From Rugalucina vietnamica (Eukaryota; Mollusca; Bivalvia; Lucinida; Lucinidae), in the NCBI GenBank assembly GCA_964017185.1, contig OZ024875.1, forward strand, positions 30,079,456 to 30,143,455: a DNA stretch of 64,000 nucleotides, in the 5' to 3' direction. Numbering within the stretch: the first letter of the stretch is position 1; each line of letters starts with the position of its first letter. The translations under genes and the position numbers were made by a program. Below are positions 28,919 through 62,813 of the stretch, one piece after another. The notes beneath the pieces were generated by a model. It saw only the letters and a list, made by a program, of their open reading frames with translations. It was not told the DNA's origin and made no database searches.

Positions 28919-31900
28919 CTGTGAAGTACAGAATGTTGGGTAGTTTTAGCACTTTCAGAACCCCTTTAGGGCACAATCAATATTTTATCAGTGTCTATAC
29001 TGTTTATTATTGTGTTCAACAATATAGGGATCAAACAGTTTTCTATGCATAAATATCTGCTGGGCCCCGAGGGAGGTATTGAAACTCAAGCCTGAAAGGT
29101 TAGGGTTTCAATCCTCCCGAGGCGCCCAGCAGACGTAAATGCATCTGCCATCAGAAGGAACATTTGAACATTGTTCTTGCATTATACAACTATTTCATGC
29201 AAAAATTTGGAGAAATTGTCCAGATTTTGGAAAAATTCAAGAACCTAAAATGGCACGGGAAAAATGACAGCTAATGACATTTTAAAAATGCTGCTTTCGA
29301 GGGGAACTTAACGTCATCATGATGTCACAATATCACGTTAAATGCATGTTGTGGATTGATGTCAAGTTTTGCGCGAGGTCCTGTAACAAGCATAAGTAAA
29401 AGCCATGTATTGACAGCACATGCTCACGAGAATTGTCATATTAATACATGGCTTTCTTTTCAGTAATATATGGCTATTAATATCGTGTGACACAGGTATT
29501 GATGCAATAATGCTCATTAGAACATAGCTGTTTGAAGCCGTTTTCAATTAGGTTGTAAGCTGTGTTCAAACAGCAAAACCCATTTTCAAATCATGAAATT
29601 CTCGTGCTGTTTGAACATGGGTTTTGGCCAACATCACTGTCAATACTACATGACGTCACTGTGTTCCGTAGAAACAAAATGGCCGATGTTAAAGAAGCTC
29701 TGCTGTTTTTCGGTGAGTTTTTATGATGTTAATGTTATTTTCAAGAGATTTTAAGTGAATTAGTGTGAAAATGCCAGAATAGTGATCAAACAGGTTTTGT
29801 TTCAGTATTCAAGCATTCGATGGATTACTTGGGAGTTGAACACGTGGCCTTCTGCCTTCTGTTCAAACACCTTCCTCGTGATCTATCGAATGCTGTGAAT
29901 ACTGAAAACCATGGTCGATCCCCATATTGTCCCCTATAATACAGTGATTTTTCAAAATTACCTGAACATTTTCTGAGTCCTTGTATATAGAGCTTTTACA
30001 TTTAGAGCATAACCAGAGGACCAATGGTCCTGTAAACGCTCACCTGAGATCTGCTTCATATACCAATAAACGAACGTCACCCAATAAACATACTTGAATA
30101 TTATGGTATTTAACCCCAGTGCAGGGGCAGATGAAGCCCTTGGACCATTTTCTTTTTTCAGAATAATCAATATTCTGTCCATTTGCCAATTTCCTGCTGA
30201 TTTTCCCCTTCAAATAACATTTTAAAAGCAGATGAGCCCCTGGGGTCCATTTTTTTTCAGAATCATTAAATTTCAGTCCTACTGCCCATTTCCTGCAAGA
30301 CTTTCACTTAAAATGACATTTTAAAAGTTTTCCCCATTCAAATGCATTGACAACCTATGTTGACCTTGCCATAAAATAGGTCAAGGTCACCACAGGGTCA
30401 TGTTTTATATATACGTTGTAGTACTTGAGTCATCCATACTTCATGCAAAGTTTCATTGAAATCGGTTCACCAGTTCTGGAGAAGAAGATATTTTAAGGGT
30501 TTTTACCATATATGGGCATGGCAGCCATCTTGGTCATGTGACCTGGATTATTTATATACACATTGGTTCCCACTTCCTATAGATGCTTCATATAAAATTT
30601 GGCTTTGATTGGCCAAAATGTTTCAGAGAAAAAAAATCTTTGAAAAGTGTGTATGGATGACAGACCGGCCAAGGTCAAGAAGATGACCTTGACCTAAATA
30701 AATCATATACCTTCATCTAATCCATTAGTTGTTTGCATCTACCACTTTTCAGATCTCAGGCTGCAACAGTTTTCAAAAAAATAGCTAATTTCCACTTTTC
30801 CCATTATAAGTCTATGGAAACTTAAAGTTACCATAGCAACCAGAGTTCTTATCCGACTGGAATAAAAAACATAAATTATGTAGAGGCTACTGTCAGGAAC
30901 ATGTATACAAAGTACAGGATTCATCCACTTGACAGTTTCTGAGGAGAAGATTTTTGAATGTTTTTTTCAAAATTTTGCCCTTTAGTGGGCCCCAGCAACC
31001 AATCAAAATAAAGGATTAGGACAAAATTCGCAAGAAACATCAAACACTACTCAATAAACATTTCTGCAAAAACAAAATTCTAATGTCTGCAATTTTAGCA
31101 GAAAAATAGCCGATTTCCACTTTTCCCATTATAAGTCTATGGAAACTATGTTGCCATAGCAACCAGAGTTCTTATCCGCCTGGAACAAAAAACATAAATT
31201 ATGTAGAGGCCACTGTCAGGAACATGTATACAAAGTATAGGCTTCATCCCCTTGACAGTTTCTGAGAAGAAGATTTTTGAATGTTTTTCAAAATTTTGCC
31301 CTATATGGGGCCCCTGCAACCAATCAAAATGAAGGATTAGGACAAAAGTCACATGAAACGTAGAGGACTACTTAATAAACATTTCTGCAAAAACAAGACA
31401 GCAAAAACTGGCAATTTTCACTTTTTTCCATTATAAGTCTATGGGAAGCATAAGTTGCCATAGCAATCACAGTCCTTATCCGATCAAAACAAAAAACATA
31501 ATTATTCTTTCCCCCTACCTGTAGATGGTGTATGTGTAATATGAGAACAATCGGCCCAGCGGTTTCAGAGAAGAAGATCTTTGAAATTGTGGACGACGAC
31601 GGACGGACGACGGACAGACGCCGGAGCATGGGTATACTATAAGCTCATCTATGAGCCTGAGCCTCGGCTCAGGTGAGCTAATAAATATCTTTATTCTGTA
31701 CCATCTATGGTTATCTTCCTTCAAATCTATCATGTTCTCATAGTCACTTGTATGAATGCCCCAGAACTTTAGGTTACAGTCCAACAAAAATATAATTACC
31801 TTAATCATTTTGTCATCTGCAGCACTAACCGGTCTCTAGTTATCAGGTAGGCACCTATCAACACCAGTATGACCTTCAGCTGCCTTCCAGTCTATCATGT

Positions 31901-34900
31901 TTACATAGTCACCGGTATGAATGAGCAAGAACTTTAGATTACAGTCTATAAAATGAAGTAATTACCTTGATTGTCTTGTCGTCTGCAGCACTAACCAGTC
32001 TCCAGTTATCTGCCTGTAGGCACCTAACAACACCAGTATGACCTTCAGCTGCCTTCCAGTCTATCATGTTTACACAGTCACCAGTAATGTGCCAGAACTT
32101 TAGATATCAGTCCATAAAATGAAGTAATTACCTTGATTGTCTTGTCGTCTGCAGCACTAACCAGTCTCCAGTTATCTGCCTGTAGGCACCTGACGACACA
32201 AGTATGACCTTCAGCTGCCTTCCAGTCTATCATGTTTACACAGTCACCAGTAATGTGCCAGAACTTTAGATATCAGTCCGTAAAATAAAGTAATTACCTT
32301 GATTGTCTTGTCGTCTGCAGCACTAACCTGCTAACCAGTCTCCAGTTATCTGCCTGTAGGCACCTAACAACACCAGTATGACCTTCAGCTGCCTTCCAGT
32401 CTATCATGTTAACACAGTCACCAGTAATGTGCCAGAACTTTCAATTACAGTCCATAAAATGAAGTAATTACCTTGATTGTCTTGTCGTCTGCAGCACTAA
32501 CCAGTCTCCAGTTATCTGCCTGTAGGCACCTGACGACACCAGTATGACCTTCAGCAGCCTTCCAGTCTATTGTATTCACACATTCACCCGTATGAATATC
32601 CCAAAACTTTAGGTTGCAGTCCAGAGAACCACTGACAATCCGCATTGCATCAAACTGCAGACAAGTTACGGCATCCTGGTGACCACACAGGGTACGCATA
32701 CAAGCACCTTCGTAGTTCCATACCTGGTGGAGGGGGTGGGAAGAAAATATCAGAAATAGATATCATTGACATCTGATCACAAATAAACAATATAATTTGC
32801 CTATTTTCCATAACTATGTTGTAGATTTAACAAATTTTCTTGTACAAGAAGTTCCAAAGCATTTCTGCTGTGTTTTTTCTTGTTCGTCTGTGTTGTGCTT
32901 GGTCAAATCTGGGAGGATTGCTACCCACTGGGAAAGGTCAAGTCATCTTTATCTTCCTGAGTGATGTTACAATTTGGTGTTCCTGTATTGTCATTTCTTT
33001 CCAACCTGGCTCTGAGGTTATAAAACTTTTTTTCATGCTCAACTCAGCTGAGCATGAAATTAAAACTGCTCATGGCTACCGAAATAACAAAAATTGGTTG
33101 AAATTTCAGGTTAAGTATATTGTCAAAGCCTGTAATTTATCCTGCTAATAAATGTTAAAATGCCAATAATTGTTGGCATTTTAACATTTTATGAGCAGGA
33201 AAATTTAGTCTCTGCTGAGCTGAGCATGAAAAATTTTATATAACCTCGGGGCCTAGTGTTTGGGTTGGGATTTTAAATTTAATTGATCAATTACTAGTCC
33301 TTCTAGGCTTACTTTTTATATTCTAATTACTGAAATGAAGAATTGTACAGATTCTGGACCATGAAATGACTTTGTAAGGTCAAAAGTCATGATTCTGAAC
33401 TTTCGCATAGGCAAATTACATGTATTGTAGAATTCCAGGAAGGCATGCTTTTTTCCAGATTTGCTTGGTTCTTGCAGTCTATACCCTTATGATACTGATG
33501 AAGAAATCTTGAACAACAAAAAATTTCAGAAGCTACCGACAATCATAAAGTTGCAAAACATACCTTAATGGTTTTGTCACATGAGCCAGAGACGACCTTT
33601 GTGTCATTGAAGTGAACACATAATACAGCAGCCTGATGACCTCTGAAATTATATAACATAACTGAGCCGCCTCATGGGAAAACCAACAATGTGGTTTCCA
33701 AACAGGTCTGACACAAACCCGCCTGTACAGCTTCAGAGGCAGGCTAGAAGCTTGAAATTTTGGAGTTAAGTAGGGGAGGAATTGTACTATCCGAGTAGCG
33801 AAAACAAAGGCGCTGATCAGCTTCGCAGTTACTGCGAAGCTGATCTGCGCCTTTGTTTTCGCATATGCAGATTGTTGGTTTTCCCATGCGGCGGCTCTTA
33901 TAACAGTGTTAACACTTGATTAAAATAATATTCATTAAAATCCAAGCAAAATAAACATGACATATAAATACATACAGTGTAAATGAGGATCTGAACGAAA
34001 GCCTATGGATTATGGTGTTCTTTTTCTATTTTCTCATTGTAGCACTTAGCTACCGTAGCTAATTATCTATCCGGGGAATAAATGTAGGTGCATGTTAGGA
34101 AAGTATAAATGAGGCATCCCTAGCAGATACCATGAATTTGTGTCGAAGAAAAAAAAATGAACTTAAAAATGTTATCATTTTTAACAGCAGTAAAATCACT
34201 GCATATAGTACAGGTATGTTATCATTACACATACCTCAGTGTGAGTTTACATCGTCCAGAATTAATATCCCAGATTTTGAGAGTTTTGTCGTACGAGCCG
34301 CTCACAACCTTTTGATCATCAACCTGGCAACAAACACATAAAATTTAAAACACATAAAACACAACCTTATTTTGTTAAAAACATGCTGTTACAGCTGCTA
34401 AGAATTTAAGTTTTCATTTGGCTAGTCATAGTTACTTTACAAGCTATATCAGACCAGCTTACCTGTAAGCACCTAACAGTATCAGAGTGACCAGTCATAG
34501 TTACTTCACAAGCTATACTAGACCAGCTTACCTGTAAGCACCTAACAGTATCAGAGTGGCCAGTTACAGTTACTTTACAAGCTATACCAGACCAGCTTAC
34601 CTGTATGCACCTAACAGTATCAGAGTGACCAGTCATAGTTACTTTACAAGCTATATCAGACCAGCTTACCTGTAAACACCTAACAGTATCAGAGTGGCCA
34701 GTCACAGTTACTTCACAAGCTTACCTGTAAGCATCTAACAGTATCAGAGTGGTCAGTCATAGTTACTTTACAAGCTAAACCAGACCAGCTTACCTGTATG
34801 CACCTAACAGTATCAGAGTGGCCAGTTACAGTTACTTTACAAGCTATACCAGACCAGCTTACCTGTATGCACCTAACAGTATCAGAGTGGCCAGTCACAG

Positions 34901-37900
34901 TTACTTTACAAGCTATATCAGACCAGCTTACCTGTAAGCACCTAGGGCTGTGTATTGCCACCTAGGAGGCGATACAATACAGTTCGCGATACAGGTACAG
35001 CAATACGCAATACGGTTTGCAATCAGTGAACTTTTGTAATTACCCGTAAATTAGCACTTACAAAAAATAATCCTTAAACGCATCAGTTCACATGATTTTC
35101 GCCAGCTGAAACGGCTGCATTATGCAGCTAAGTTTCACCTTTGACATTGTTTATTGAGGCGTGTAATATGTCAGTACACAAAATATGCACCCCAAATTTC
35201 CCGCACTTTTTGTCCAGTGCCTACTTATGAATATTAATGAGCTGTGCGCACACAATTGCGCATAAAAACAATTGGCGTCCAAGGTTTTCGGGACCGATTT
35301 GGTCGGATTTTCATTATTTTCGGTGTGTATTCCGTACAGTATAGCACTCGCTATATCGGAAAAAAAATAAATCAGCCAATAAAGCATGCTTCTTCGGCGT
35401 GTTAATCCCAAGGTCGCGTTAGCTTGTCTGGTTTCCAGCTCCTCGTGATTTTACAGTGCACCGTTCAGCTGAGTAGGAATGCATACAGTTGGATTTTCCG
35501 ACATATATTTATTATTAGAATGGCTTCCTAGAAACATTGCGTAAATAATAGGACAATTATAGACGCAATTCTGCTCAAAACATGTCAGTTTTCTTAAAAA
35601 GAAGGAGAGTTTTCTTCATAAATCTTTTCTAAGGAGGTTCGCGAACCTTGTGTAAAAGCAGGTGGCGATACGATACGCTGGTTCGTCAGCCGTCGTACCG
35701 CAAATACTCGAGTGTTCGATATATCGCTGCAGCCCTATAAGCACCTAACAGTATCAGAGTGACCAGTCATAGTTACTTTACAAGCTAAACCAGACCAGCT
35801 TACCTGTAAGCACCTAACAGTATCAGAGTGGCCAGTCAGTTATTTCACAAGCTATACTAGACCAACTTACCTGTAAGCACCTAACAGTATCAGAGTGGCC
35901 AGTCATAGTTACTTTACAAGCTATACTAGACCAGCTCTCTTGTGTTGACAGATCCCATACCTACAAATAGAATTGAAACTTCAATAATACTGATTAGACA
36001 AGACAATGTTTTGTAATATATGTCTTTTTCTCAGAAACCACTGGGCTAGTTTGAGAGCCTGTAGGTAAAAGTACAAAGAAATGAAAATTGACTTATTTCA
36101 CATGTCACATGACAAGTCACAAAGATGGCTGCCACGTCCAAATATGGTACCTTCAAAGGTTAAAAAACTTGATTTTCTCAGAGACCAGTGGACCATTTAT
36201 AGCCAAATTATATAGGTATATGAGCAGTTGAGGACCTTGGCCAAACAAATTCAACATTATATGAGCCGCCTCGTGGGGAAACCAAAAATGTGGTTTCCGA
36301 ACAGGTCCGACACAAACCAGCCTGTACAAGCACAGAAAAGAGCTAGAAGCTTCAAATTTCGGATTTAAGTAGAAGAGGAATTGTACTATCCGTGTAGCGA
36401 AAACAAAGGCGCTGATCAGCTTCGCGGTTACCGCGAAGCTGATCTGCGTCTTTGTTTTTGCATATGCAGATTGTTGGTTTTCCCATGAGGCGGCTCATAT
36501 AATCAAAATTCAGGTGAGCATTCACGGTTAAGATTTTCTATGGTAAAGCAAAAATAAGATAATCTCCACTTACTTTGATCATACAGTCTGTTGAGCCACT
36601 AACCAGCCTGTTTCCCTCAAGATGTAGACACCTGACAGTACCGCTGTGTCCCACCAGAGTCTGCACAGACCACTGAGCATTTGTTCGGATATTCCATACC
36701 TGAAATCATAGGTGTTGAAAATGTTTCCTCGCCTTATGGATTCTCTTATGAAATGGGTGTGTCCAATGTGTATTTCCTTTTTTTTAAATTTATCTATTTT
36801 TATTTTTTTATTCTCTAATCCTCATATCAAATGGGTGTGCTCACTTTCATTTCTTTTCATTTTTTTTTTCATTTTCATTTCTTTATCTTTTTTGTCTCCT
36901 TTCTTTTGTTTTATTTTTTCTTTGTCTTCCTGGGCTGTGAGTACAGGTAGTAAACAGAAACAAAAAAAAAAACATGAAATATTATCATAGACTTGTTTCT
37001 TTCCCACCTGTGGTTTTAGGGAATGATCGCACCAGTTCCTGATCATTGTTAACATGTACTTTAAACTTTTAACAGCCTCTACTTATGTGATAATAAGTTT
37101 CCTGGTCCTAGAGTACAAGACCCCCTTGTTGTAAATGAGCCGCCTTGTGGGAAAACCAACAATGTGGTTTCCAAACAGGTCAGACACAAACCGGCCTGTA
37201 CAAGCACAGAAAAGAGCTAGAATCTTGAAATTTCCGATTTAAGTAGAAGAGGAATCGTACTATCCGAATAGCGAAAACAAAGACGCTGATCAGCTTCGCG
37301 GTTACCGCGAAGCTGATCTGCGTCTTTGTTTTCGCCTTTGCAGATTGTTGGTTTTCCCATGAGGTGGCTCAAATGAAAGAGAATACTGAACACAATAACC
37401 TCTTATGTGCTAATGAGTCAAGTGCCCTAGATATAAGACCACACAGTTAGCATCTGGGAGAATATTAGTTTGTCAGAGAGTTTCAGAAAGAAATGCTTCT
37501 CGTTTCTTCTAACTGCTGGTCAGAGAATGACTTGTCAATTATCAGCTTAAGGGATTGAAAACTAGGGCAGTAATCATTAGGACTGTAATCTAAGCAAATC
37601 TGTCTCCGAGATACAGACTACTTTGTACTTTATAGATACATCCCATTGTTGTTCATAACAAATGGACTACTTTGTACTTTAGATACATCCCATTGTTGTT
37701 CATAACAAATGGACTACTTTGTACTTTAGATACATCCCATTGTTGTTCATAACAAATGGACTACTATGTACTTTAGATACATCCCATTGTTGTTCATAAC
37801 AAATGGACTACTATGTACTTTAGATACATCCCATTGTTGTTCATAACAAATGGACTACTTTGTACTTTAGATACATCCCATTGTTGTTCATAACAAATGG

Positions 37901-40900
37901 ACTACTATGTACTTTAGATACATCCCATTGTTGTTCATAACAAATGGACTACTTTGTACTTTAGATACATCCCATTTTTGTCCATAAATATTCATTCATA
38001 TATTCTATATGAGCACAAGAAAACCAACAATCTGCATATTTAAAGAAAAGAAGCACAGCTGATCGGCACATTTCGCTACATAGATAGTACAATGAATCTT
38101 CTTGAATCCGAAAGTTCAAACTTTTAGCCGTCTTGTGCAACCTTATGGGCCGGTTTGTGTTGGATCTGGTCAGAGACCCTGAAGACCTGTTTTCTCACGT
38201 CAAGGCAAAACCAATGAACCAAGAAATATAGATCACGGTGACCTAGATTTGCTGTGGTCATACTTTCTCATTATGAGAAGGTAACATGTTGTTCATAATC
38301 AATTTAAGTGAACTACATCACACAAATGAGCCACCTCGTGGGAAAACCAACAATGTGGTTTCCGAACAGGTCTGACACAAATCAGGCTGCACAGTCACAG
38401 AAGCAGGCTAGAAGCTTGAAATTTCGGATTTAAAAAGAAGAGGAAGTGTACTATCTGTGTAGCGAAAACAAAGGCGCTGATCAGCTTGGCAGTTACCGCG
38501 AAGCTGATCTGCGTCTTTGTTTTCGCATATGCAGATTGTTAGTTTTCTCACGAGGTGGCTCAAATAAGGTTTGCGTTGGTGCTTTACACCCATAGTCAAC
38601 AGCTAAGGTCATATTGGGACAGTCTGTTATCTTGATCAGTGGTAAAGATGTTTCTTGGCAAGCCTCTCAGACAGAGGCAGGTTACCAGTATTAAGTGCAC
38701 ATTTTCTTTCACCACAAACTGACAAAAACTCTTCTTGAATCAGCAGAAGAGGAAGAATGGCCTTAGACTAAATCTTTATGGAAGCAATGTGACATTGAGG
38801 GTCCTTTTCTTTAAGAATTAGACACCCTTCTGATAGAGCTATTGTACCTGTCAGATCAATTGCAACGACATAAAGAGGTTATACATTTTACCTTTATAGT
38901 TTTGTCTGATGAGCCACTGACAATTCTTGAGTCATCAAACTGTACACAGGAGATACCTGAAAAATATTGTGTTAAAGAAATCAATAATATGGTAGTGGTG
39001 GGGGTTGATTCAATATAACTATGATTTATGAAATTTACTACTAGGTAATGGAGACAAGCTTGATGCACTTATTCAATGGTAAAAGCCTTATGCACTATAG
39101 CTTCCCAGCCCATGACAGGGACAGAATAGGCTACTGCATGACATTTACCAATTTTTAAAATCTCCTAGAGCAGCTTTTTTTCATATCTGACCATTGGTTG
39201 AGCATTAGAGCATTTGGTAAGCATTAATGACAAATTTTAGCACTGACCTTGTGAATGACCTTCAAATGTTCTCACAGTACATCTGCCCTTCAGCCAGTTC
39301 TTACGGAGCCGGAAACGCTCTGCAAACACCAGCTTCCACTGCAAAGAAGAAATAAATATTTCTGATGAAGCTCTTTGAAAGAACGAAATGCGTCAATCTT
39401 GTTAAACAAACAGATGAATGTTTCGTAGTTGGTAGTTTGTTCTATTTTATACCTTTGATAAATGATTTAAATATTTTTAAGTTACCCTGTACTTATAAGG
39501 CCCTTTTGTTCTTTGGGATTCTTTTTTCTTTTTTTTTTTTTTTTTTTTTTAATTCAGTTTTACGTGCCTTTCAAGATTATTTCAGCTCATATGAGACGGG
39601 CCAATCAGTAGGTGGGGCGAAAACGGGAGAACCCCGAGAAAAACCACCTGACACACCCGCAAGCAGAACTTGGCTTGTCTCACATGTGGCCAGAGCGGGG
39701 CTCGAACCTACACCAGTCACAGCAGTGAGATGATCGAGTGATTAAGAAACAGCGCTCTTAACCGCTCGGCCACGGAGGCCGCGATTCTTTTTTCACCACA
39801 TGCTGTCTTTAAACTCTGTGCTCCTAGGCGTTTTTGATTAATACTGCTGATTCAGGTCCTTTTGAAGTTAAGTCTGTAGAATAATATATCCCATGGGAAT
39901 AATATGAACTTGCAGGTTGGGTATAACAATAACACATAATTTACTCGGATGTGTAAGCTTCTTGTTACATCAAGTATTTTATGATATCTTTGATAAAGTT
40001 TCAATATTTCTTTCAATATTCCATGCAAAGTTGGTAAAAACAAATTCTGAAGAAAAAAATACAACTACTGATACAGCATGTAGCAAAACTTGATGCTAAT
40101 AAAACTTAATAATGAATATTCTATTTTGAATTCACTTTTTCTCAAGTCCTTAATCATGTTTTTAGCTATGAGCTATCATAGCTTTACAGCTTTACATTCG
40201 CTGTCAGAAAATTTATTCTGTAATTGTCACAACTTTTACATCTTAAGTTGTTTGTTTGTATTGAGGTTTAACGTTCAAGTAAACAATTTTTCAGTCATGT
40301 CTTGATAGAGCCACTGCTTCCTGGGTATTGAACAGTACTTTAGGGAATAAATGAGTCTTGCTCAAGAACACAACACAGGACCCATCAGGGTTTGAACTCA
40401 GGACCTCTTGATTTCGAGTCTTGACACTCTAACACAAGGCTACCACACTCCTTACCTCTAAGTTGTGTCATACAAAAACTTTTTGTTTGGTATCTAAGTC
40501 AATTACATGTATTAAGGTTAATGTTAAGAAGAACCCGCTCATTATCATAATATGGAAGCCACAGACAAGATTCAGCATTCAATCATGAACAACTGAGAAA
40601 TCAAAAGAAGAAAAGAGAAATAATGCTTGTTTAACGTACCAAAGGAGAAAAGACAGAGAGAATCAAGTTCAAAATGCAAGTCTTTTGGGACTTACAGCAT
40701 ATGAAATTTGTGAAATTGAGAGATTTTTTTTATATATTTATATATCATTTGATATGGAAGACTTATAACATGCCAGATGATTACCCTGTACTTTTGACAT
40801 TTTGACAAGTAACTCTACCCTGTAAAGTTAAAACATTGCACAAGTATACAAAATAGAATGCATTTTTTTGAGAAACAGTTCAAACATAATTCTAAAATTG

Positions 40901-57108: not shown

Positions 57109-57194
57109 TCTTGAAATTATGTGATGGTTTAATTATTTACTGTGCTAGAAGTTGCTTTATATGACCTAGTGCATGGCATAATTATGTTATCTAA

Positions 57195-57991
57195 TAAGAG
57201 CTGTCGCAGGACAGCGTAGCTCGCCTGACTTGTGCTTTGCCACTAAATTTATCAAAATCTAAGACCCATGACCTTGACCTCAAGGTCGCTCAGGTGGGTC
57301 ATAAAAGCATAAAATTTCAGACCAATATCTACAAACATGCAAAGTATCAACTTGATCTATCAACATGTTCAAGAGATATAGACTTCTAACAACTTTAACG
57401 AAAAACTTCAACAAAAAAATTCTAAATCTGTGACCTTGACCTCACGGTCACCCAGGGTGGGTCATGATGGTACTCCATAAAACTTCAGACCAATATCCTC
57501 AAACATGCAAAGTATCAACTTGATCCATCAACATGTTCAAGAGATATAGACTTCTTAAATCTTTTATGAAAAACTTTAACATAAAATTTCTAAATCCGTG
57601 ACCTTGACCTCAAGGTCACCCAGAGTGGACCACGATGGTACTGCATAAAACTTCAGACCAATATCTACCAACATGCAAAGTATCAACTTGATCCATTAAC
57701 ATGTTCAAGAGATATAGACTTCTAAAACTTTAATGAAAAACTTTAACAAAAAATTTCTAAGTCTGTGACCTTGACCTCAAGGTCACCCAAGATGGGTCAT
57801 GATGGTACTGCATAAAACTTCAGACCAATATCTACCAATATGCAAAGTATCAACTTGATAAATCTACATGTTCAAGAGATATAGACTTCTAAAAACTTTA
57901 ACCGAAAGTGTGACGCGGATGTACACGTAAACGTTAACGCGGATGACCGAGGTGACAACAATAGCTCTGTGCACTTCGTGCAGGCGAGCTA
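57195..57991 (+). mobile_element. Hairpin-ended tandem-repeat element, 0.8 kb
   Basis: Starts GAGCTGTCGCAGGACAGCGT + AGCTC (hairpin) and ends TAGCTCTGTGCACTTCGTGC + AGGCGAGCTA (hairpin). The core has four units of about 160 bp, each with GTGACCTTGACCTCAAGGTC, CATAAAACTTCAGACCAATA and TCAAGAGATATAGACTTCT. Same ends as the element at 58497-62560. Possibly Helitron/Helentron-type non-autonomous; inference. Confidence 0.75.
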
Positions 57992-58097
57992 AAAAAATTA
58001 AAATAGAAAATACAGCAAAATAAATCTGTCACAGCTGATGAGCATGATAAAAAGCCCCATCCTCTTCTATCTAAGCACATCAGTCTTTTCAGAATAT

Positions 58098-58188
58098 GAG
58101 CCGCCTCGAGGGAAAACCAACAATGTGGTTTCCGAACAGGTCCAACACAAACCAGGCTGTACAAGCACAGAAGAATGCTACAGACTGG
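58098..58188 (+). mobile_element. GAGCC-family element, left half (interrupted)
   Basis: GAGCCGCCTCGAGGGAAAAC to GCTACAGACTGG. The family consensus continues with AATTTTGGATTTAGAAAG, found at 62653, so this copy was split by a 4.46-kb insertion. Confidence 0.85.
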
Positions 58189-58496
58189 TAAGGCCACATT
58201 TAAAATTATTTCTGTTTGCCCTCTCCCTACCCTGTCGAGAAAAGTTAGGTAGGTAGGTAGGATTTTTTATTTTTTTTTTTTTTATTAACTACTGTATTAT
58301 GCGTTATTTTTGGTCAAAGGAATTAGCTACAATTTTGTCAAAGCTACTCACAATTACAGTTGCATTTTATGTTTTGTAGTGCTTGAACACAAGAACAAAA
58401 TATCCAATTGGTGAGGAGGGTCATGGTTTAAATGAAAACACATTAATTTCTAGGGAAAACAATTTATCTTCTGACAGAAACATTTAAAAAAAATAA

Positions 58497-61400
58497 AATA
58501 AGAGCTGTCGCAGGACAGCGTGCTCGACTGCTTCTGACCTTTGTCAAACATAAGGCCAAACCCGACCAGTAACCCAAAGCATTATGCTCATACATCTTTT
58601 TGCATTGATGCAATAAGGCAAAATCACTGAACCATGAAAGTTAACTATAACTACCTAAGATTTAAAGGTCTGACTCATATTGTGAAAGAAGTGTGTTCAT
58701 ATACCAACTGAGTGCCAAGACACAAGGCAAAATCACTGAACCGTGAAATAAGGTCACACTGACCTATAAGTATTTTAGGGTCAAAGGTCTAGTGATACTC
58801 ACTCATAATGTGAAAGAAATATGATCATATACCCATTCAGTGTTGAGATATAAAGCAAAATCACTGAACCATGAAATTAGGTCACAGTGACCTATAAGTA
58901 TGTTTGGGTTAAAGGTCTGGTCATACTCATTCATAATCAGAAAGAAGTATGAAAAAAATACCAACTGAGTGTCGAGATATAAGGCAAAATCACTGAACCA
59001 TGAAATTAGGTCACAGTGACCCAGGAATACTTTATGGTCAAAGGTCTTGTCATACTCGTACATATCATGAAAGAAGTATGTTCATATACCAATTGAGTGC
59101 TGAAATATAAAGGAAAATCACTGAACCGTGAAATTAGGTCATATTGAATTAGGACTACTTTAGGGTCAAAGGTCTTGTCATACGCAAACTTAGTGTGAAA
59201 GAAGTTTGTTCATAAACAACTTGAGTGCTGAGATATAAGGCAAAGTCACTGAACCGTGAAATTAGGTCACAGTGACCTACAAGTATATTGGGGTCAAAGG
59301 TCTGGTCATACTCACTCATAATCTGAAAAAAGTATGAAAATATACTAATTGAGTGTCAAGATATAAGGCAAAATCACTGAACCATGAAATTAGGTCACAG
59401 TGACCTAGGACTACTTCAGGGTCAAAGGTCTTGTCATACGCAAACATAGTTTGAAAGAAGTTTGTTCATAAACCATTTGAGTACCGAGATATAAGGCAAA
59501 ATCACTGAACCGTGAAATTAGGTCACAGTGACCTATAAGTATATTGGGGTCGAAGGTCTGGTCATACTCACTCATTATCTGAAAAAAGTATGAAAATATA
59601 CTAATTAAGTATCAAGATATAAGGCAAAATCACTGAACCGTGAAATTAGGTCACAGTGACCTATAAGTATATTGGGGTCAAAGGCCTGGTCGTACTCACT
59701 CATAATCTGAAAGAAGTAAGAAAATATACTAATTGAGTGTCAACATATAAGGCAAAATCACTGAACCACGGAAAGTAGGTCAACCGACCCTTACCTCATG
59801 ACACACAAGTCAGTGTCACGAAGTCAAAAGATGAATGACCAACCATCTTCCTAAGTTGTTTCTATTAAGAAGTAAAAAGAAAAAAAATTCGGGGAGTTCT
59901 AGATTTTGACCTCTAGCCCCGCCCCCCCCTGACTCTGACCTAGAGGTCCGATGTCATGGAACCTAAAGTGTATGAAGTATGAATGCTTTATGATAAGTTG
60001 TTGTCAAGATATGGACTCCTTGTGAAATTAGGTCATATTGAATTAGGACTACTTTAGGGTCAAAGGTCTTGTCATACGCAAACTTAGTGTGAAAGAAGTT
60101 TGTTCATAAACAACTTGAGTGCTGAGATATAAGGCAAAGTCACTGAACCGTGAAATTAGGTCACAGTGACCTATAAGTATATTGGGGTCAAAGGTCTGGT
60201 CATACTCACTCATAATCTGAAAAAAGTATGAAAATATACTAATTGAGTGTCAAGATTTAAGGCAAAATCACTGAACCATGAAATTAGGTCACAGTGACCT
60301 AGGACTACTTCAGGGTCAAAGGTCTTGTCATACGCAAACATAGTTTGAAAGAAGTTTGTTCATAAACCATTTGAGTACCGAGATATAAGGCAAAATCACT
60401 GAACCGTGAAATTAGGTCACAGTGACCTATAAGTATATTGGGGTCGAAGGTCTGGTCATACTCACTCATTATCTGAAAAAAGTATGAAAATATACTAATT
60501 AAGTATCAAGATATAAGGCAAAATCACTGAACCGTGAAATTAGGTCACAGTGACCTATAAGTATATTGGGGTCAAAGGCCTGGTCGTACTCACTCATAAT
60601 CTGAAAGAAGTAAGAAAATATACTAATTGAGTGTCAACATATAAGGCAAAATCACTGAACCACGGAAAGTAGGTCAACCGACCCTTACCTCATGACACAC
60701 AAGTCAGTGTCACAAAGTCAAAAGATGAATGACCAACCATCTTCCTAAGTTGTTTCTATTAAGAAGTAAAAAGAAAAAAAATTCGGGGAGTTCTAGATTT
60801 TGACCTCTAGCCCCGCCCCCTCTGACTCCGACCTAGAGGTCCGATGTCATGGAACCTAAAGTGTATGAAGTATGAATGCTTTATGATAAGTTGTTGTCAA
60901 GATATGGACTCCTTGTGAAATTAGGTCATATTGAATTAGGACTACTTTAGGGTCAAAGGTCTTGTCATACGCAAACTTAGTGTGAAAGAAGTTTGTTCAT
61001 AAACAACTTGAGTGCTGAGATATAAGGCAAAGTCACTGAACCGTGAAATTAGGTCACAGTGACCTATAAGTATATTGGGGTCAAAGGTCTGGTCATACTC
61101 ACTCATAATCTGAAAAAAGTATGAAAATATACTAATTGAGTGTCAAGATATAAGGCAAAATCACTGAACCATGAAATTAGGTCACAGTGACCTAGGACTA
61201 CTTCAGGGTCAAAGGTCTTGTCATACGCAAACATAGTTTGAAAGAAGTTTGTTCATAAACCATTTGAGTACCGAGATATAAGGCAAAATCACTGAACCGT
61301 GAAATTATGTCACAGTGACCTAGGACTACTTCAGGGTCAAAGGTCTTGTCATACGCAAACACACTTTGAAAGAAGTTTGTTCATAAACCATTTGAGTACC

Positions 61401-62560
61401 GAGATATAAGGCAAAATCACTGAACCGTGAAATTAGGTCACAGTGACCTATAAGTATATTGGGGTCGAAGGTCTGGTCATACTCACTCATTATCTGAAAA
61501 AAGTATGAAAATATACTAATTAAGTATCAAGATATAAGGCAAAATCACTGAACCGTGAAATTAGGTCACAGTGACCTATAAGTATATTGGGGTCAAAGGC
61601 CTGGTCGTACTCACTCATAATCTGAAAGAAGTAAGAAAATATACTAATTGAGTGTCAACATATAAGGCAAAATCACTGAACCTTACCTCATGACACACAA
61701 GTCAGTGTCACAAAGTCAAAAGATGAATGACCAACCATCTTCCTAAGTTGTTTCTATTTAGAAGTAAAAAGAAAAAAAATTCGGGGAGTTCTAGATTTTG
61801 ACCTCTAGCCCTGCCCCCCCCCCCCCCCCCCTGACTCCGACCTAGAGGTCCGATGTCATGGAACCTAAAGTGTATGAAGTATGAATGCTTTATGATAAGT
61901 TGTTGTCAAGATATGGACTCCTTGTAAAAGTTACACAGCAGTACATCTATATTTTACAGTGTTTTAGTTTTTAACCTCCAGCCCCACCCCCCAGGCATGG
62001 ACCCAGAGATCCGATGCCATTAAATGAAACTCAACCCTACAGGGTACCTATGGTCCAAGTATGAAAGCCCTCTGATAAAAAGTTTCCAAGATATAGACTT
62101 CTAGAATACTATATCACAGAAAAGCCATTATTATTAATGGTGTTCTAGATTTTAACCTCTAGCCCCACCCCCTGGCATGGACCCAGGGATCTGATGCATG
62201 GAATAAAAGCCGACCCTACAGGGTGTCAATGGCCCAAGTATCAATGCTTTCTGATGAGTGGTTGTCAAGATATGGACTTCTAGAAAACTTTAACACAAGA
62301 ATTGCCATTTTTGAAGGTGTTCTAGATTTTAACCTCCAGCCCAACCCCCTGGCCTAGACCCAGGGGCCCAATGCCATGGAATGAAAGCTAACCCTACAGG
62401 GTATCTATGGTCCAAGTATGAATGCTTTCTGATGAGTGGTTGTCAAGATATGGACTTCTAGAAAACTTTAACGCAAGTGTGACGCGCACGGGAATGGGAA
62501 CGGGAACGTGGACGACCGGGGTGACTGCAATAGCTCTATGCACTTCGTGCAGTCGAGCTA
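58497..62560 (+). mobile_element. Hairpin-ended element of 4.06 kb with higher-order tandem array
   Basis: Starts GAGCTGTCGCAGGACAGCGT and ends TAGCTCTATGCACTTCGTGC + AGTCGAGCTA, like its relative at 57195. The core is an array of about 128-bp monomers, with a higher-order unit of about 894 bp (for example 59264/60158/61051) that adds about 250 bp containing TTCGGGGAGTTCTAGATTTT. After 61,930 a second tandem series of about 190 bp follows. No ORF of note. Confidence 0.82.
58751..61577 (+). promoter_or_regulatory. Array of perfect oestrogen-response-element palindromes
   Basis: GGTCAnnnTGACC occurs intact in 15-bp sites starting at 58751 (CAC spacer), 58879, 59008, 59264, 59392, 59520, 59648, 60158, 60286, 60414, 60542, 61051, 61179, 61435 and 61563 (all CAG spacer). 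A mutated one lies at 61307. AGGTCACAGTGACCT is the classical vitellogenin-type ERE. Whether it is bound in this animal is unknown. Confidence 0.9.
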
Positions 62561-62652
62561 AAAATGAAAGGGCAATAAAATTTTTTGAGTAGGCCCTATT
62601 TTAGGTGAGTAGGTAGGGAGAGGGCAAACAAACAAATCTTTATTTTTGGCCC

Positions 62653-62792
62653 AATTTTGGATTTAGAAAGTAGAGGAATTGTACTATCGGTGTAGCGAAA
62701 ACCTAGGCGCAGATCAGCTTCGCAGTAACTGCGAAGCTGATCTGCGCCTTTGTTTTCGCATATGCAGTTTGTTGGTTTTCTCATGAGGCATC
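62653..62792 (+). mobile_element. GAGCC-family element, right half (interrupted)
   Basis: AATTTTGGATTTAGAAAGTA, hairpin centre TTCGCAGTAACTGCGAA and right end CATGAGGCATC. Continues the left half at 58098-58188. Confidence 0.85.
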
Positions 62793-62813
62793 AAATATGA
62801 TTTGAGCTGCCGC

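Follow-up and report, generated by a model that had tools for sequence, protein, structure and literature searches.

The non-autonomous Helentrons of the oyster Crassostrea gigas, designated Cg_HINE, carry satellite-like central repeats (PMC7492417), and the Alu repeats of primates contain 102,359 Alu-DR2 sites, several of which are bound in vivo by RAR (PMC1785376). Retrotransposons have also spread regulatory sites in the course of mammary evolution (PMC7145552). The present work concerns a stretch of 64,000 nucleotides from the bivalve Rugalucina vietnamica (assembly GCA_964017185.1, contig OZ024875.1, positions 30,079,456 to 30,143,455; hereafter the window, numbered from its first letter), in which perfect consensus oestrogen response elements (ERE) are arranged in a tandem array. 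The structure of the surrounding sequence supports the view that this array forms the central part of HINE-B, a non-autonomous Helentron-like element some 4.1 kb long. The sites were multiplied by tandem and higher-order duplication and were dispersed together with the ends of the element. Alu is a retroposed short interspersed element (SINE), and an Alu subclass containing EREs was reportedly described by Norris et al. in 1995. As with Alu-DR2, very many copies of a consensus nuclear-receptor site have here been spread by a transposon; RAR binding was demonstrated by chromatin immunoprecipitation (ChIP) in the Alu case (PMC1785376), whereas the HINE-B sites are predicted binding sites, and HINE-B would be a DNA transposon bearing tandem arrays of an inverted-repeat site. 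The ERE-Alu and mammary cases (PMC7145552) likewise involve transposon-derived sites for hormone-related transcription factors, in mammalian retrotransposons and not in tandem arrays within a DNA transposon. In the open-licence literature, no title or abstract opening among the matches listed dealt with receptor sites in bivalve Helentrons.

The palindrome counted throughout is GGTCANNNTGACC, the consensus ERE being GGTCAnnnTGACC, an inverted repeat with a 3-base spacer. The exact pattern is present 15 times in the window, always within 58752-61576, against a mean of 0.04 in shuffled sequences (0 of 100 shuffles reach 15), and each of the 15 sites is a GGTCAnnnTGACC inverted repeat with the 3-base spacer. 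The spacer is CAC in the first palindrome (58752..58764) and CAG in the 14 others, located on the forward strand, as are HINE-B with its parts, HINE-A and the old monomer described below, at 58880..58892, 59009..59021, 59265..59277, 59393..59405, 59521..59533, 59649..59661, 60159..60171, 60287..60299, 60415..60427, 60543..60555, 61052..61064, 61180..61192, 61436..61448 and 61564..61576. Exact counting and shuffling therefore bear out an earlier note on this DNA, which had reported 15 intact palindromes, 14 of them with CAG; its start coordinate, 58751, is one base too early. A 128-bp period was detected by Tandem Repeats Finder over 58673-61682, and the monomer array as a whole, edge monomer first and with other segments interrupting it, covers 58577..61683. 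The array yields 19 anchored monomers, each about 128 bp long, with the site intact in 15 and broken in four: one monomer type displays GGTCATATTGAAT three times (59137..59149, with copies at 60031 and 60924), and a variant with a single altered arm base is found at 61308..61320. The edge monomers upstream of 58744 are more degenerate and likewise devoid of an intact palindrome, as had been stated of degenerate monomers. Where the palindrome would be, the edge monomers of 58577-58743 show a GTTAACTATAACT-like stretch, also seen in other copies (loci L102 and L104).

The array is built around a higher-order unit of about 893 bp, three copies of which start near 59129, 60023 and 60916 (copy 1, 59129..60022). 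They display 7 substitution positions in ungapped columns, and the third copy has one additional monomer. The number of independent sites is lower than 15 because the remaining monomers are copies within this unit; 8 distinct monomer types are present, 7 of them with an intact palindrome. The earlier description of one palindrome per monomer of about 128 bp is accurate as to the period and for 15 of the 19 monomers, with the qualification that only 7 distinct intact types are involved. Recent array expansion, put forward in the same note as an alternative, accounts for the repeated sites of this array through the copies of the higher-order unit. The palindrome belongs to a conserved monomer core of 41 bp (59237..59277 in one example). 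Downstream of it, most monomers contain a DR1-like pair, GGGTC[AG]AAGG[TC]C (17 matches, 58778-61601).

HINE-B spans 58499..62564 (boundaries approximate) and is composed of a left end, the 128-bp array, a second array with a period of about 178 bp (61877..62477, Tandem Repeats Finder) and a right end. The left flank module (58499..58550) contains the inverted subterminal arm GCTCGACTGC at 58522-58531, and the right flank (62446..62564) displays a terminal hairpin and the inverted arm GCAGTCGAGC at 62549-62558. A related element, HINE-A, lies at 57191..57995 (boundaries approximate) with a different 168-bp array and the inverted arms TAGCTCGCCTG (57217-57227) and CAGGCGAGCTA (57981-57991). The left ends of the two elements are 86.5% identical over 52 aligned positions and the right ends 82.5% over 120, while their central repeats differ. 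Both subterminal inverted repeats are perfect (11/11 bp in HINE-A, 10/10 bp in HINE-B), the arms differing between the elements with their complementarity preserved, which constitutes a compensated difference. In the right-end hairpin of both elements TGCACTTCGTGCA lies within the outer stem, with folding z scores of -2.27 (HINE-A) and -1.74 (HINE-B); on the left side, where HINE-A only was folded, its GCTGTC/GACAGC hairpin folds no better than shuffles (z -0.06). No open reading frame (ORF) of at least 150 aa is present in HINE-B among unspliced frames read with the bacterial table, the longest stop-to-stop frame among those listed being one of 92 aa in the array.

This organization resembles that of the Cg_HINE elements, described with two flank modules bearing subterminal inverted repeats, a palindrome near the 3' end and central tandem repeats, with one element holding two consecutive arrays and with wide genomic dispersal (PMC7492417). 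Central tandem repeats between flank modules are present in HINE-B and also at other loci. The two systems differ in that monomers of 160-180 bp dominate in the oyster, against the 128-bp array of HINE-B, and in that the portions of the oyster report available to us mention no nuclear-receptor motif and use the term 'transcription factor' 0 times (PMC7492417). In addition, the left-flank microsatellite of Cg_HINE was not recognised in HINE-B: none was reported by Tandem Repeats Finder, and no further search was made. The 168-bp array of HINE-A (57270-57786) possesses a palindrome of its own, GTGACCTTGACCTCAAGGTCAC, which has GGTCA/TGACC arms and is present in two full copies and a shorter one; 10 AGGTCA motifs fall within 815 bp, where 0.5 would be expected. 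Inverted arms at 58094-58231 and 62612-62798 flank HINE-B and suggest nesting in another foldback-type repeat.

The whole genome (1,089,854,562 bp in 47 contigs) was scanned and each palindrome place was counted once, which yielded 27,801 palindromes against 647 for the reversed pattern. The version with a 4-base spacer, the only alternative spacer counted, occurs 1,371 times against 437 for its reversed pattern, and the large excess is consequently specific to the 3-base spacer. Spacing was analysed in the first 100 of the 27,801 sites, distributed over 2.65 Mb of one chromosome: 91 form 13 clusters and the other 9 stand alone. Twelve clusters are arrays, which together hold 89 palindromes and all show, among the matches listed, the neighbouring decamer TCACTGAACC or a third monomer pattern; the thirteenth is an out-of-register pair (C1:1666963). 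Of all 78 spacings, 76 deviate from a multiple of 128 by no more than 8 bp. Extrapolation of this 89% suggests that about 25,000 genomic sites would be located in arrays. Among the single palindromes, four belong to one near-identical repeat family (L107, L108, L110, L113) and one stands amid older monomers (L114). The repeat of the former four contains what reads as a reverse-transcriptase ORF, together with another perfect palindrome, GGTCATCTTGACC.

The monomer was also searched for without its palindrome. The palindrome-free part gave at least 43 matches (40 scored of 567 first-look candidates), and a 33-base palindrome-free segment has 13,651 genomic occurrences at no more than 3 mismatches, against 0 for the control. 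Twenty loci were fetched via this part of the monomer; they represent half of the 40 best-scored consensus matches and, being drawn from these, are mostly younger copies. Eight further loci of about 3 kb were added to them. The left end of HINE-B is found in 16 of the 20 fetched loci with 89-100% identity (it is absent from L090, L094, L096 and L104), at most about 110 bp from the first monomer match except in L092, where it falls inside the match span. Some match to the right end exists in 15 of the 20, limited to 25 bases in L091 and absent from L090, L094, L096, L104 and L106. This recurrence of the ends upholds the earlier statement that the array is transposon-borne. The 20 loci contain 127 intact palindromes altogether, L096 having 0.

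A candidate receptor for such sites is encoded by the same genome. A zf-C4 profile search gave 75 matches, and 20 stretches selected from them were translated. Two of these (L117 and L118) are the two halves of an oestrogen-receptor (ER) type DNA-binding domain (DBD) with the P-box CEGCKAFF; once joined, they match AncSR1 (E=3.9e-43), human/chicken ER (3.5e-39) and, more weakly, ERR (2.2e-30). Two other stretches (L119 and L120) look like ERR, judging by their P-box (CEACKAFF). In gel shift experiments, the ER-like DBD of the snail Marisa binds GGTCAnnnTGACC ligand-free, and Marisa ERR apparently does not, as data not shown in the same report (PMC3778743). According to a 2025 review, mollusc ESRs do not bind oestrogens, are maybe constitutively active and have been proposed to form an NR3D class (PMC12965858); for this reason, a hormone response is not expected even if the sites are bound. 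Because the host encodes a receptor with an ER-type DBD, the palindromes would probably be bound in vitro by this resident receptor, and ligand-free occupancy may occur in accessible chromatin. The earlier suggestion that copies of the element could seed nuclear-receptor sites consequently holds as a potential, given 27,801 sites, an encoded ER-type DBD and the binding of GGTCAnnnTGACC by a mollusc ER.

The note had further proposed that the 10 contact bases be compared with the rest of the monomer. Site tests used matches located outside the window and covering 110 columns or more; these are 218 of 311 (23 of the 311 being in the window), of which 197 are distinct and originate from 27 of the 28 loci; shorter, more divergent matches were excluded from these counts. 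Broken sites do occur, for example among the 40 lowest-identity members of the 256 matches with palindrome columns, and perfect arms are found in 143 of the 197 distinct monomers. Identity reaches 0.965 in the arms and 0.944 in the remaining core columns, with 0.861 outside the core and 0.830 in the spacer, and in the most diverged quarter it is 0.948 in the arms and 0.931 in the rest of the core. Among the 8 monomer types of the window, variable columns number 2/10 in the arms, 7/31 in the rest of the core and 44/87 outside (arms versus rest of core, p=1.0; arms versus outside, p=0.10; core versus outside, p=0.002). An old single monomer at 38202..38310, in another dispersed repeat, shows a degenerate site, GATCACGGTGACC, and retains 9/10 arm bases, 27/31 other core bases and 52/78 outside; its local alignment score of 97 exceeds the highest value, 45, reached by 200 base shuffles. 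Rare variants, counted in columns without subfamily changes and taken as a measure of decay in resident copies, affect 68/1964 cells in the arms (3.5%), 107/4117 in the rest of the core (2.6%) and 244/8918 outside (2.7%). A leave-out parsimony tree test that took in the window monomers (208 distinct monomers in all) placed 11 internal changes in the arms, the mean for equally shaped column sets being 17.8, and 33 of 126 sets, arms included, have as few. A first count of internal and terminal changes, which hinted at constraint (arms versus outside, p=0.007), was discarded because the outside columns had served to build its tree, biasing their counts; the leave-out test gives no clear support to this hint. 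The neighbouring decamer TCACTGAACC is found 31,732 times genome-wide (control 909), a total not exactly comparable to that of the palindrome since array ends hold decamers without a palindrome. In the lists of the first 100 matches, 69 of 95 decamers share their monomer with an intact palindrome, the 5 located beyond the last listed palindrome being excluded, and 31 of 100 palindromes have no decamer.

Several results point towards some constraint on the arms. Judged by plain identity, the arms are matched in conservation by just 6 of 127 equally shaped offsets, the arms themselves being counted. Subfamily-level variants affect 0/10 arm columns, compared with 39/85 outside the core (Fisher p=0.005), 7/28 in the rest of the core (p=0.16 versus arms) and 2/3 in the spacer. 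Terminal changes in the leave-out test number 53 in the arms against a mean of 65.8, 98 of 126 sets, arms included, having at least as many, a deficit which fits uneasily with free decay. Another monomer pattern totals 23,266 (control 3,843), below the 27,801 of the palindrome, and one C1 array has 10 palindromes and no decamer among the matches listed. The comparison of contact bases is therefore divided: the absence of subfamily changes in the arms speaks for constraint, and against it conservation of the arms is close to that of the remaining columns of the 41-bp core, rare variants are not fewer in them, and the neighbouring decamer is as abundant as the palindrome genome-wide. On balance, retention through function is not supported. 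Overall the palindrome is well preserved within a core that is itself well preserved, receptor contacts being an unproved reason for this.

The explanation we consider likely, with a substantial margin of doubt, is that the palindrome is a fixed part of the HINE monomer, passively spread by the transposon as a binding-competent site, with no selection detected on resident copies. Monomers and higher-order blocks were duplicated within the element, and the element was copied throughout the genome, presumably by rolling-circle copying as its family membership suggests, with the palindrome carried along with the 41-bp core. The default outcome would be passive: a great many binding-competent sites, scattered and for the most part neutral, which on occasion could acquire a regulatory use or cause mild titration. 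Free decay of resident sites, a component of this explanation, is supported but not proved.

Two other explanations would give the palindrome a function. It might serve the transposon itself, by being bound or by forming a hairpin in replication, transposition or array amplification, the ERE match being coincidental. HINE-A, with its different monomers, also has GGTCA/TGACC-arm palindromes in its repeats, conservation covers the whole core beyond receptor contacts, and one monomer folded as single-stranded DNA surpasses its shuffles (z -2.6; 1 in 200 as good) with a predicted pairing of the conserved upstream decamer and the palindrome. This fold was nevertheless obtained from one monomer only, and selection on a hairpin formed by the arms was considered and rejected, as 985 arm pairs show 66 one-sided, 1 two-sided and 0 complementary changes; moreover, the portions of the Helentron literature available to us assign the central repeats no function in movement. 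We regard such a role as unlikely. Hardly better or worse placed, and in our opinion improbable as well, is a functional platform or sink, in which a constitutively active ER-like receptor would occupy thousands of arrays and be titrated by them or make them enhancers, to the benefit of element or host. The 27,801 palindromes and the encoded ER-type DBD are consistent with it, as are the ligand-free binding of a mollusc ER (PMC3778743), the precedent of Alu-DR2 sites occupied in vivo (PMC1785376) and the fact that none of the 10 arm columns carries a subfamily change. It is opposed by rare variants that are no scarcer in the arms, by arms that are not clearly special within the core, and by a higher-order repeat which has copied broken sites together with intact ones. 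Finally, a host factor other than the ER orthologue could read the monomer, such as a nuclear receptor acting on DR1-type or half-sites (RXR, COUP-TF and HNF4 types are examples). The 17 DR1-like pairs of the array and the 75 zf-C4 matches would suit this proposal, but the DR1-like pair is not part of the 41-bp core, and genome-wide counts are lower for a pattern that overlaps its region; we give this proposal very little weight.

Some further observations were made. The old monomer at 38202-38310 is flanked by the arms of a dispersed, foldback-like repeat, many further copies of which are present in the window. In 31761-32623 and 34419-35933 there are tandem repeats with unit lengths of about 166 and 69 bp; on the minus strand the ends of these units resemble splice donors, and they may be duplicated exons. 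Occurrences of the 16-mer AGGTCACAGTGACCTA in viral (14 stretches) and prokaryote (34) contigs were judged to be due to chance; BLAST of the monomer against those contigs produced only alignments of at most 35 bases, almost all of them on the site itself, the whole window had no match in them at E 1e-3, and two further viral scans and a phage search found nothing.

The arrays might act as a receptor sink or as enhancers. The strongest form of this view, in which a Helentron-derived satellite has placed perhaps 25,000 perfect sites in arrays and a ligand-independent ER-like receptor is partly titrated by them or uses them, is in our estimation improbable. If true, a transposon would tune a lineage of steroid receptors whose hormone has been lost, and selection on propagating elements would explain why the contact bases lack subfamily changes. 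That transposon spread can yield genuine receptor sites follows from the binding of Alu-DR2 sites by RARs in vivo (PMC1785376). To the question of what mollusc ER-like receptors target in the genome, a first answer in sequence terms is that 89 of 100 sampled sites lie in arrays of one transposon monomer. ChIP, reporter and toxicology work on such a receptor must account for these arrays, which are well suited to testing whether sites for a hormone-independent receptor can be loaded into a genome by a transposon.

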